Shown here: positions 10,978-49,640 of the stretch, one piece after another | Layout of the letters: every line of letters starts with the position of its first letter | Numbering within the stretch: the first letter of the stretch is position 1 | Program-made: the position numbers and the translations under genes | Assembly: GCA_031276945.1 (NCBI GenBank) | Contig: JAISMB010000033.1 | Coordinates: 1-64,000, forward strand | DNA from: Spirochaetaceae bacterium | Lineage (GTDB): Bacteria; Spirochaetota; Spirochaetia; Treponematales; Breznakiellaceae | Direction of reading: 5' to 3' | DNA: 64,000 bases | The notes under the pieces: generated by a model | The model's database searches: none | Told to the model about the DNA's origin: nothing | The model's input: the letters and a program-made list of their open reading frames with translations, nothing else

Positions 10978-11015
10978 TAAGAGGAGAGGACAGCCCTCCG
11001 CATCTCTGGGTGGCG

Positions 11016-11141
11016 AGGTCTGACCTACAAAGGGTAAGGTCTGACCTACAAAGGGTAAGGTCTGACCTACAAAGGGCGAGGTCTGACCTACAAAGGGCGA
11101 GGTCTGACCTACAAAGGGCGAGGTCTGACTTATCGGCTGAG
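11016..11141 (+). repeat. 21-bp tandem array, GGTCTGACC type, 6 copies
   Basis: The motif AGGTCTGAC starts at 11016 and repeats exactly every 21 bp to 11121. The unit is GGGCGAGGTCTG plus ACCTACAAA, with GGTAAGG in the first copies. It abuts the 22-bp array that follows. Confidence 0.92.
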
Positions 11142-18608: not shown

Positions 18609-18632
18609 CTGAGCGTGAAGGGGTGTGAAGGG

Positions 18633-18947
18633 GCGAGGTCTGTCCGTGAGGGGGCGAGGTCTGTCCGTGGGTGGGCGAGGTCTGTCCGTGAGAGGGCGAG
18701 GTCTGTCCGTGAGGGGGCGAGGTCTGTCCGTGAAGGGGCGAGGTCTGTCCGTGAGAGGGCGAGGTCTGTCCGTGAGAGGGCGAGGTCTGTCCGTGGGTGG
18801 GCGAGGTCTGTCCGTGAGGGGGCGAGGTCTGTCCGTGAGAGGGCGAGGTCTGTCCGTGAGAGGGCGAGGTCTGTCCGTGAGAGGGTGAAGTCTGTCCGTG
18901 AGGGGGCGAGGTCTGTCCGTGAAGGGGCGAGGTCTGTCCGTGAAACT
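18633..18947 (+). repeat. 21-bp tandem array, GCGAGGTCTGTCC type, 15 copies
   Basis: GCGAGGTCTGTCCGTG recurs every 21 bp from 18633 to 18927. The last 5-6 bases vary (AGAGG, GGTGG, AGGGG, AAGGG). The array ends 56 bp before the RND gene. Confidence 0.93.
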
Positions 18948-25431: not shown

Positions 25432-25740
25432 CAGACCTCGCCCCTTATAAGTCAGACCTTGCCCCTTATAGGACAAACCTCGCCCCCTTTAAGTCAGACC
25501 TCGCCCCTTATAAGTCAGACCTCGCCCTCTTTAAGTCAGACCTCGCTCTCTTTAAGTCAGACCTCGCCCCCTTTAAGTCAGACCTCGCCCCCTTTAAGTC
25601 AGACCTCGCCCCCTTTAAGTCAGACCTCGCCTCCTTTAAGTCAGACCTCGCCCTCTTTAAGTCAGACCTCGCTCTCTTTAAGTCAGACCTCGCCTCCTTT
25701 AAGTCAGACCTCGCCTCCTTTAAGTCAGACCTCGCCCTCC
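25432..25740 (+). repeat. 21-bp tandem array, GTCAGACCTCGCC type, 15 copies
   Basis: CAGACCTCG or a variant recurs at 25432 and every 21 bp to 25726. On the minus strand the unit reads GGGCGAGGTCTG plus ACTTAAAGG. It shares its core with the arrays at 11016 and 18633. It abuts the 22-bp array. Confidence 0.93.
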
Positions 25741-26092
25741 AGAGATGCGGGAGTCCCGACTGAGAGATACGGGAGTCTTGACTGAGAGATGCGGGAGTCT
25801 CGACTGAGAGATGCGGGAGTCTCGACCGAGAGATGCGGCAGTCTTGGCTGAGAGATGCAGGAGTCTCGACCGAGAGATGCGGCAGTCTCGGCTGAGAGAT
25901 GCGGGAGTCTTGGCTGAGAGATGCGGGAGTCTTGGCTGAGAGATGCGGGAGTCCCGACTGAGAGATGCGGGAGTCTCGACCGAGAGATGCGGGAGTCTCG
26001 ACCGAGAGATGCGGCAGTCTCGACCGAGAGATGCGGCAGTCTCGACCGAGAGATGCGGCAGTCTTGACTGAGAGATGCGGGAGTTTTGTCCG
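25741..26092 (+). repeat. 22-bp tandem array, GAGATGCGGGAGTCTCGAC type, 16 copies
   Basis: AGAGATGCGG starts at 25741 and recurs every 22 bp to 26071. It is the reverse complement of the 11141-11283 array. With the 21-bp array before it, it forms an inverted copy of the composite at 11016-11283. Confidence 0.93.
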
Positions 26093-34622: not shown

Positions 34623-36029
34623 ATGAGAAGGAATTCTTTCAGACTTTCCTCACTAATAGCGGGCATTTGTGTTGGGATTTATCTTGCGGCTGTTATTTTT
34701 ACTGTTGTTAAAATTACCACTGTTATTTCAGAACGGCGCATCAAAGCGGCGCGTGAATTTAAAGAGATAAGCACTTTGGTTGCGGCTGGCGACAAAGGGT
34801 TCATGGATGAACTAAGTAAAAATCGAGTGCAAGAGGCGCTTGCCCAATCAGAAACCTTACAGGGTCTTATCGTGAACGGATCGGGTAATACCTATCCTTT
34901 TGAGCGAGAACCGGGCATTATTATTCCGGTACATAATGATAGCGGCTTTCAATTTGTCGGGCGGCTGGGCTTTTCAAAAAACCCTTTGAGCGCCCAAGTT
35001 CCTAACGCTACCATTGCTGCGCTCTATAGCATTTTCGATTACCAGCTCTTTATTAGTATTTTTAAGCAGAGTCTTATTGCCATACTCGCTGCATTCTGCA
35101 TAGCATTTACCGGCTTGCTCATACAGTTTTTTTCCGGAAAATCCACGGCGCTTGAAGCCAAAGATGAATTGTTCTCTGATATGGATACGGGAGACTTTGA
35201 TGATCTTGATCTGCCGGCGCTGGATTCTAACACGCATGCGGATAAACTCGACTTTAGTTTACCGGAGATCGATTTTAACGATCAATCGGATGATCTTGAC
35301 TTTAGCTTACCTGAGATCGATTCTGAGACGAACTCGGATGACCTCGACTTTAGTTTACCTGAGATCGATTCTGAGACGAACTCGGATGACCTTGACTTCA
35401 CTCTACCGGAGGCAGATTTTAACGATCAATCGGATGATCTCGACTTTAGTTTACCGGAAGCAGATTCTGATACCTTAGACTTTAACCTGCCTGAGGCAGA
35501 TTCTGACACTCAGTCGGAAGGGGACTTAGGCGCTCAATCATCTCATCAGGTCATGGCAGCTCAGAGCGGCACAGCCTCGCATCTGAGGGCGGTATTACAA
35601 GAATGTACCGCGACAGACAAGGAGCTCGCCTGTCTTATACTAGAAGCAAAGGAAGTAGGCGGGTCAGAGGCGCTCTATCAGACTATCGCCGGTGAGGCGC
35701 TTAAATTTTTTGGCGTAACTGACGGTGTTTTCCAAAAGGATGCACGAGGAATAACGCTTATCCTGCCGGGAGAAACGCTGGAAGGGTGCCGTGCAAAGGT
35801 TGAAACATTGCATCAACAGATTCTCGAAAAGCATGGTGATATTTTCTGGGAAGCCTCTGATATCTGTATCGGTCTGAGCGCCCGGCAAGGGCGGGACCTT
35901 GATGCAGAGAGGCTTTTGCTAGAAGCATCAACCGCACTCAAAAAAGCGCTGGCTGACCCACAGAATCCTATCATAGCCTTCAAAGTTGACCCTGAACGTT
36001 ATAAGGCTTTTCTTAATCAAAAGAAATAA
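34623..36029 (+). CDS. Membrane protein with acidic repeats and degenerate GGDEF-like C-terminus
   Basis: A 468-residue inner-membrane protein. A membrane helix (about residues 11-33), a periplasmic segment of about 110 residues and a second helix (about 150-172) are followed by an acidic region of six to seven 16-residue units such as DDLDFSLPEIDSETNS. A globular C-terminus runs from about residue 310. Its last part (ISIG-like ICIGLSARQGRDLDAERLLLEASTALKKAL) has the strand-helix pattern of a GGDEF domain end, but no GG(D/E)EF motif is present, so diguanylate cyclase activity is unlikely. It may be a scaffold or c-di-GMP-pathway relic. It converges on the DUF4340 gene with a 13-bp overlap. 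Confidence 0.6.
   Translation: MRRNSFRLSSLIAGICVGIYLAAVIFTVVKITTVISERRIKAAREFKEISTLVAAGDKGFMDELSKNRVQEALAQSETLQGLIVNGSGNTYPFEREPGIIIPVHNDSGFQFVGRLGFSKNPLSAQVPNATIAALYSIFDYQLFISIFKQSLIAILAAFCIAFTGLLIQFFSGKSTALEAKDELFSDMDTGDFDDLDLPALDSNTHADKLDFSLPEIDFNDQSDDLDFSLPEIDSETNSDDLDFSLPEIDSETNSDDLDFTLPEADFNDQSDDLDFSLPEADSDTLDFNLPEADSDTQSEGDLGAQSSHQVMAAQSGTASHLRAVLQECTATDKELACLILEAKEVGGSEALYQTIAGEALKFFGVTDGVFQKDARGITLILPGETLEGCRAKVETLHQQILEKHGDIFWEASDICIGLSARQGRDLDAERLLLEASTALKKALADPQNPIIAFKVDPERYKAFLNQKK
35203..35500 (+). repeat. 48-bp coding repeats encoding acidic 16-residue units
   Basis: About six units encode D(D/K)LDFSLPE followed by IDSETNS, IDFNDQS or ADFNDQS. Two central units are nearly identical at DNA level, pointing to recent duplication. 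Confidence 0.8.
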
Positions 36030-41666: not shown

Positions 41667-41790
41667 AGTACAGAGGTATTGCTACTCGCTCTGCTCAATG
41701 TTCTGATTCCTTTCTCGCCGTTCTCTATCTCAGATCTATCTTCCTTGTCTTTTGACGACACCCCCTAGGGTGAGGGCGCGAGGTCTGACC
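41667..41790 (-). repeat. Copy of the approx. 90-bp dispersed element (GTGTCGTC...GATAGATCTGAGATAGAGA)
   Basis: Read on the minus strand: GGTCAGACCTCGCG, CCTAGGGGGTGTCGTCA, then GAAGATAGATCTGAGATAGA, AACGGCGAGAAAGGAATCAG and AGAGCGAGTAGCAATACCTC. The same series occurs on the plus strand at 48857-48960 beside the transposase. The short open frames crossing both copies look alike only because of this repeat. Confidence 0.75.
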
Positions 41791-48761: not shown

Positions 48762-48825
48762 GCTCTTTTCACCAAGCAGCCTCTCTTTTTCAGAAGGCTG
48801 ACATGGCTCAGTTCAGAGGAGGCAA

Positions 48826-48960
48826 GTCAGACCTTGCCGTCAAAATCGTCAAAATAGGTCAGACCTAGGGGTGTCATCAGAAGGCGAGGGAGATAGATCT
48901 GAGATAGAGAGCGGCAAGAAAGGAAGCAGAACGTTGAGCATAGCGAGTAGTACTACCTCT
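48826..48960 (+). repeat. Left flank of the RAYT: inverted GGTCTG units plus the approx. 90-bp dispersed element
   Basis: GTCAGACCTTGCCGTCAAAA (48826-48845) and GGTCAGACC (48857-48865) are followed by CTAGGGGTGTCATCAG and GAGATAGATCTGAGATAGAG. The first block recurs inverted on the other side of the transposase (49552-49575); the last part is shared with 41667-41790. Confidence 0.75.
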
Positions 48961-48966
48961 CCACTT

Positions 48967-49491
48967 TCACAAAAGCAGTTTGAGGTCTGTCCTCCAAGCT
49001 GTATCAGTTACCAGAGAGACAACCGTCATGATCCCCTGTTCACGGTGGTATGCACCGCTGTACTGCCATTGTTCAGGCTTCTGCACCAATCCCGCTGCGA
49101 CAGGATTTTGGTCTATGTACTTAAACACAGTCCAAAAATCTTTCTCGTTCTTGATTTCTCGTGAATAAAACCGATCTCCCCAGAAATGACCAGTCTTATG
49201 GTGTTTTTTGTTCCACCGAATGGCAAAAACCATCTTAATCCACTTCAATATATCAGAGAGACTCTGCCCTTTTTCAGGCGTAATGAAAAAGTGGAAATGA
49301 TTACCCATGATGCAGAAGTTCCACAGTTTGAACTTGAAGCCCTTCTTGATTTTTGCTTCTCCAATCACGGTGAGAAAGAGTTTTTTCATCTCATCCGGCT
49401 CTAATTCAAAAGCGTCTCTGTTTACTTTTGAAGTAACATGATAAGTCAGACCTTGGTCTGTTAGTCCACGAGGCAAATTATGACTAGACAT
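48967..49491 (-). CDS. REP-associated tyrosine transposase (RAYT, Y1/HUH)
   Basis: A 174-residue Y1-family single-strand transposase of the TnpA_REP group. It has the conserved entry GLTYHVTSKVNR, the HUH motif in NFCIMGNHFHFFI (HxH with Phe), and a catalytic-Tyr region around FWGDRFYSREI, with YIDQNPVAAGLV and WQYSGAY after it. RAYTs act on short REP palindromes and are often single-copy rather than selfish IS elements. Codons for LTDQGLTYH carry AAGGTCTGACTTAT (plus-strand 49442-49455), and codons for WRTDLKLLL at the C-terminus carry AGGACAGACCTC, so the dispersed repeat core lies inside both gene ends. Inverted repeat units flank the gene. This is the REPtron layout. Confidence 0.85.
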   Translation of the reverse strand: MSSHNLPRGLTDQGLTYHVTSKVNRDAFELEPDEMKKLFLTVIGEAKIKKGFKFKLWNFCIMGNHFHFFITPEKGQSLSDILKWIKMVFAIRWNKKHHKTGHFWGDRFYSREIKNEKDFWTVFKYIDQNPVAAGLVQKPEQWQYSGAYHREQGIMTVVSLVTDTAWRTDLKLLL

Positions 49492-49551
49492 AATACCTAT
49501 AATAGAGCTGACTGTGCTTTTTGATTCAATCAGAGCGAAATATTTTTATTT

Positions 49552-49640
49552 ATTTTTGACAGCGAGGTCTGTCCTATCTGTCCTATCTTATCTATCTTAT
49601 CTGATCTGTCCTATCTTATCTATCTTATCTGCCGCCGATA
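49552..49640 (+). repeat. Right flank of the RAYT: GACAGCGAGGTCTGTCC plus TATCTGTCC/TATCTTATC repeats
   Basis: ATTTTTGACAGCGAGGTC (from 49552) is the inverted partner of the left-flank block. It is followed by short repeats TATCTGTCCTATCTTATC to about 49632. Confidence 0.7.

Follow-up and report, generated by a model that had tools for sequence, protein, structure and literature searches.

An amplified, apparently self-mobile RAYT and its lineage-specific cognate repeats in a spirochete genome

RAYTs are textbook host-adopted transposases: one vertically inherited copy, whose own gene is no longer copied. In a 64,000-nucleotide stretch of a spirochete draft genome (the window), a gene of this family lies among copies of a short repeat that is dispersed through the genome. 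The initial annotation interpreted this locus as REPtron-like and suggested that its RAYT spreads repeat units, with inverted units flanking the gene and further units inside both ends of its coding sequence. We asked whether the locus is such a system or whether the gene itself has moved.

The transposase and its repeat

The protein encoded by the gene (Table 1) is 174 aa long and matches Y1_Tnp as its sole Pfam domain. It scores 91.6 bits against the REP_Tyr_transpos profile of NCBIfam (NF047646, cut-off 80) and 23.7 bits against the TnpA_IS200 profile (NF033573), far under the cut-off of 55. It has the HUH motif (NHFH) and the single catalytic tyrosine in a Y...NP motif (YIDQNP) that define RAYT/TnpAREP proteins; the Y...Q motif of IS200/IS605 transposases was not found in it, nor were the greater length and C-terminal HTH typical of TIRYTs. 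Among 28 sequences H65, H67, N129 and P130 are invariant and Y125 is near-invariant. A fold search with an AF2 model of the protein (pLDDT 88.8) put 4er8, the E. coli TnpAREP-REP complex, at the top (E 6e-11, TM 0.69/0.72), with ISDra2 and IS608 TnpA behind it. Profile and fold both bear out the family assignment of the initial annotation. A single close sequence match carries an organism name, and it comes from a Treponema metagenome assembly (91% identity). The guide-contact residues of E. coli TnpAREP, Q95, E100, H101 and R104 (PMC6006769), align with G, S, R and K in the window protein.

Table 1. Positions of the RAYT locus features and of tandem arrays in the window
Feature	Position	Strand	Details
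Array of the repeat unit itself	11012-11129	+	TRF; 21 bp period, 5.6 copies
Array of GGTCTGTCC units	18625-18943	+	TRF; 21 bp period, 15.2 copies
Array of AGTCAGACC units	25432-25737	+	21 bp period; abuts unrelated 22 bp array 25741-26084
Two neighbouring solo units	48825-48865	+	AGTCAGACC and GGTCAGACC; past IS5-derived tail
IS5-derived tail, ~100 bp	48864-48966	-	From 3' end of IS5-family element; closes with its terminal repeat (..GACACCCCTAG)
RAYT (Y1/HUH transposase), 174 aa	48967-49491	-	PF01797 E 3e-14; NHFH at residues 64-67; catalytic Y125 in YIDQNP
Right-end core GGACAGACC	48984-48992	-	Codons 167-170 (RTDL); boundary of 29 non-tailed copies
N-terminal in-gene match GGTCTGACT	49444-49452	-	Codons G-L-T; orientation opposite to element ends
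Element left end, GATA followed by GGACAGACCTCGCTGTCAAAA	49557-49578	-	Core 49566-49574; 42-copy alignment

The repeat core is far more frequent than expected. The window contains 16 copies of GGTCTGACC where 0.26 would be expected and 40 of GGTCTG[AT]CC where 0.42 would be, with units in roughly a dozen window gaps. The whole assembly, a 2.18 Mb draft that is 82% complete, contains 1,024 copies of GGTCTGACC and 6 of a reversed control pattern. When RAYT copies and arrays are left out, solo units have the consensus [AG]TA[GA]G[TA]CAGACCTCG, about 16 bp long. Although ORFs of at least 120 aa make up 80% of the sequence, 79% of units lie outside them. Adjacent units have the same orientation, and spacings of 18-24, 42 and 44 bp recur in at least three cases; in the spacing count of this genome no inverted spacing was seen three times. 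Because neighbours share their orientation and no inverted spacing recurs, the units are not REPINs. As single-stranded DNA the core folds weakly (-1.6 kcal/mol), no better than shuffles, and its foot is [AG]TA[GA]; the published RAYT foot is GT[AG]G with a stable hairpin.

We then compared repeat load in 59 genomes, counting GGTCTGACC and GGGGACAGA together and relating the sum to that of reversed control patterns. Median log2 enrichment was 1.28 in the 28 genomes with a RAYT versus -0.22 in the 31 without (p = 2e-6; Spearman 0.67 for repeat load versus RAYT), a contrast favoured by the choice of the two patterns after RAYT-bearing genomes had been seen. Without the source genome's own genus the association had p = 2e-5, and all 12 genomes with more than 2.8-fold enrichment have a RAYT. 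Repeat load tracks RAYT presence, in agreement with the proposed link between the two; a repeat abundance unrelated to RAYT presence, named beforehand as the outcome that counts against this link, was not found in the 59 genomes.

The core sequence shifts with the RAYT lineage. G001 (40 RAYTs) contains 1,405 copies of GGGGACAGA and one of GGTCTGACC, its core reading GGGGACAGACCTC; G003 has 743 copies of GGTCTGACC; and GTGTCAGACAC occurs 222 times in G026 (29 RAYTs) and 67 times in G006. Both GGGGACAGA and GGTCTGACC core types are present in G002, whose 49 RAYT copies belong to at least two lineages. In the copies inspected each genome's core also adjoins its RAYT genes, with the exception of G026, where the core clearly flanking an inspected copy was of the GGTCAGACC type. 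The sequence GGGGACAG, present in G001, G010, G039 and others, fits the TIRYT terminal inverted repeat (TIR) consensus GGGG[AT][CG]A[CG] (PMC3733652, PMC6006769), the equivalent in the source genome being TAGG[AT]CAG.

Ends, copies and movement of the element

The sequences quoted in the initial annotation were all found, AGTCAGACCTTGCCGTCAAAA from 48825, ATTTTTGACAGCGAGGTC to 49570 and both cores inside the gene (Table 1). When 42 copies were anchored on the upstream core, information was 0.01 bit/position outside, rose at GATA and reached 1.07 inside. This left boundary, between GATA and GGACAGACC, is sharp and common to the copies. At the other end, 29 of the 48 near-full-length copies within 680 kb of own-genome sequence lack the IS5-derived tail, and in these, past the C-terminal core (GGTCAGACC and GAGGTCTGACC among the variants), similarity extends no further than the stop codon. 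The C-terminal unit inside the gene is therefore the element's right end. Since the upstream and C-terminal units both read GGACAGACC on the gene strand, the element's own ends are direct. The inverted unit taken for a flanking copy does exist, but it is a separate neighbour beyond the tail. Beside the left end, at 49576-49631, a 28 bp stretch (ATCTGTCCTATCTTATCTATCTTATCTG) is repeated directly without a mismatch.

Coding overlap had been claimed at both gene ends and considered unusual. The C-terminal overlap stands as the element's right end; flanking repeats that overlap genes of this kind have already been described (PMC3733652, 5'ov/3'ov). At the N-terminal position every own-genome copy listed has GGTCTGA[CT] at codons G-L-T. 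We found no exceptional synonymous constraint there, 29% of 3-codon windows being at least as conserved, and rejected selection on this unit on that ground. The N-terminal core is absent from the G003 and G001 copies compared, G003 having GGCCTCACC-like codons instead. Because it is absent in G003, a sister species with the same repeat, the N-terminal core is probably incidental, or at most lineage-specific.

The assembly contains 97 Y1_Tnp places, of which at least 60 (those scored with the window RAYT protein) share 84-94% identity with it, counts in which copies split by contig ends of the draft may figure twice. The flanks of the copies are unrelated and their boundaries common. Since the gene itself is amplified, the single-copy logic of a REPtron with one RAYT does not apply. 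In a draw of 296 genomes from the phylum, first-look candidates numbered 129 in the source genome and 31 in the next highest of those listed; within the genus, G001 to G003 carry from 40 to at least 60 RAYT copies. Our literature search, with most subscription papers outside its coverage, returned no earlier description of a RAYT expansion or of the arrays described below. In another family member, G016, the first look gave 154 candidates; they belong to a distant Y1 type (L123-L125; E 3e-14), and the palindrome that recurs in this genome, GGGGGAAGTCTCCCCC, is a different one. This is perhaps an independent expansion.

The RAYT copies are under purifying selection. Median dN/dS was 0.12 at dS 0.56 (39 ungapped copies, 741 pairs), indicating an old family whose function has been maintained, in contrast to IS copies that arise in a burst and are identical. 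In a tree, the G003 copies and the G001 copies each fall in their own supported clades, with own-genome copies apart in a poorly resolved star. These species-specific clades thus point to repeated expansion within species. At 5 of 5 comparable gene neighbourhoods the RAYT beside a conserved block is missing in G003; gene order differs too, so none of the five is an exact empty site. Around the window locus, G003 shares the upstream gene and tRNA-Leu as far as a contig end; the gene downstream of the window RAYT has another neighbour in G003 and no RAYT. Alignment of 680 kb of own sequence with about 370 kb from G003 gave no exact empty sites between species; the units lie outside alignable sequence, within which core matches are chance coding matches alone. 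Pairs of flanks within the genome, taken as paralogous empty sites, yielded essentially the IS5 tail only.

We consider the feature real and biologically meaningful, and interpret the window locus as one copy of a self-mobile, IS200-like RAYT element of about 0.6-0.7 kb, plus its solo ends (probability about 0.78). The TnpA of IS200/IS605 elements binds, cleaves and moves via the element's own ends. The left end here, about 75 bp upstream of the start codon, would consist of a guide (GATA/GTA[GA]) and a core (GG[AT]CAGACCTCG), and the right end of another core, oriented alike, within the last codons. In the most likely mechanism, the HUH enzyme would bind the single-stranded form of the short core, cleave beside it and move the whole element. 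Solo ends may also have been moved or re-copied by the enzyme, giving rise to more than 1,000 units of about 16 bp. The predicted single-strand target is GATAGG[AT]CAGACCTCGCC, and GATAGGACAGACCTCGCC and the 3' coding end are candidate cleavage and joining substrates. Copy number, common ends, selection, species-specific clades, the five absences in G003, repeat enrichment, core switching and the 4er8 fold argue for self-mobility. Weighing against it are the lack of exact empty sites, the weak folding, the differing guide-contact residues, the draft state of the genome and the absence of any observed movement.

An improbable alternative is that an IS5-family transposase spread the RAYT gene as a passenger; in tailed copies the right end is made up of the IS5 3' end and terminal repeat. 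The IS5 terminal repeat closes 19 of the 48 copies, including the window copy, the tail sequence matches the 3' ends of IS5-type transposase remnants, and CGTCAAAA occurs both in the RAYT left end and in the IS5 terminal repeat. However, the 29 tail-less copies have a left end identical in type, only 2 tailed copies have an upstream IS5 repeat, and the aligned G003 and G001 copies have no tail yet are equally expanded. Decayed two-frame IS5-family elements with the terminal repeat CTAGGGAGTGTCGTCAAAA (window 41672-41782; L071 7993-8194) are the source of the tail on these 19 copies and of the dispersed motif GACGACACCCCC. This motif was considered as a second RAYT unit and rejected, as it is the IS5-family terminal repeat. 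An ordinary REPtron, with a fixed host-adopted RAYT that copies units while its own gene is immobile, accords with the family membership and the cognate repeats but is very improbable, since it already conflicts with the copy number and the boundaries: dozens of intact copies with common ends at unshared positions. Some array-plus-unit blocks with common flanks (L082 and window 41192) could stem from homologous recombination or segmental duplication between repeat-rich gaps. As the source of copies and units this route is just as improbable, given 0.01 bit/position, and no shared flank information, beyond the element ends.

Tandem arrays near repeat units

TRF detected 14 tandem arrays of 21, 22 or 23 bp units in the window between 8689 and 57695, and such arrays often abut repeat units. 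In 680 kb of the source genome there are 81 arrays with periods of 20-24 bp, nearly all of 21, 22 or 23 bp, and the same narrow range was seen in G001 and G003. A 48 bp tandem repeat in the window (35239-35458, 4.6 copies) is of another kind. The array units form dozens of unrelated sequence families, most arrays are without the core, and the units have more internal stems than shuffles (3.97 vs 3.12 +/- 0.15). In the source genome 37 of 62 arrays without the core have one no more than 40 bp away, compared with 13.9 +/- 3.3 for random intergenic positions. The corresponding counts were 29 of 56 arrays in G001, which has a different core (vs 9.8 +/- 2.6), and 7 of 30 in G003 (vs 2.8 +/- 1.6). 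Array density is 0.9 per 100 kb in RAYT-free relatives versus 9-18 in the source genome, G001 and G003.

The link between arrays and units is real, but RAYT presence is not its simple cause, because 80 kb of G002, with its 49 RAYTs, contained no 21-23 bp arrays. The orientation of units towards arrays showed no consistency in the source genome (28 to 29) and a weak bias in G001 (27 to 15, p 0.09). Conceivably, though we think it unlikely, the RAYT/repeat machinery makes or carries these arrays of unrelated sequence, either by amplifying DNA beside the cut site, each step spanning about two helical turns, or with the array as cargo between units. The plain alternative is that arrays and units share a tolerance of repeat-rich gaps. 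The linked 21-23 bp arrays may reveal the birth of new repeat families.

Relation to known systems

The locus shares the Y1 HUH fold (4er8), the Y...NP motif and a gene bounded by the genome's dispersed repeat with the RAYT/TnpAREP REPtrons of E. coli, Stenotrophomonas and Pseudomonas. It differs from them in having at least 60 close copies at unshared positions where a low-copy, immobile gene is the rule: REP-associated RAYT subclasses average 1.0-1.8 copies per genome in a published classification (PMC6006769), Nunvar et al. saw neither multiple copies nor location changes (PMC2817692), and RAYTs have been described as single-copy, vertical and not self-copying (PMC8049555). Its core is also shorter and folds weakly, and neighbouring units have the same orientation instead of forming REPIN pairs. 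This spirochete RAYT offers a natural test of short-repeat spread, and its amplified lineage allows a direct test of the open question whether REPs are really spread by RAYTs.

TIRYTs (PMC3733652) resemble the system in their TIR consensus, matched by GGGGACAG in the relatives, and in the overlap of flank and gene end known there. They differ in that the window protein is short, with Y1_Tnp only, and its element has direct rather than inverted ends. Like IS200/IS605 TnpA elements, the element is multi-copy, with direct-oriented ends and the same fold; unlike them, its protein has YIDQNP in place of Y...Q and falls below the NF033573 cut-off, and its copies are diverged (dS about 0.56) rather than near-identical. 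An amplified RAYT gene with a species-varying cognate core would link IS200-type elements and REPtrons.
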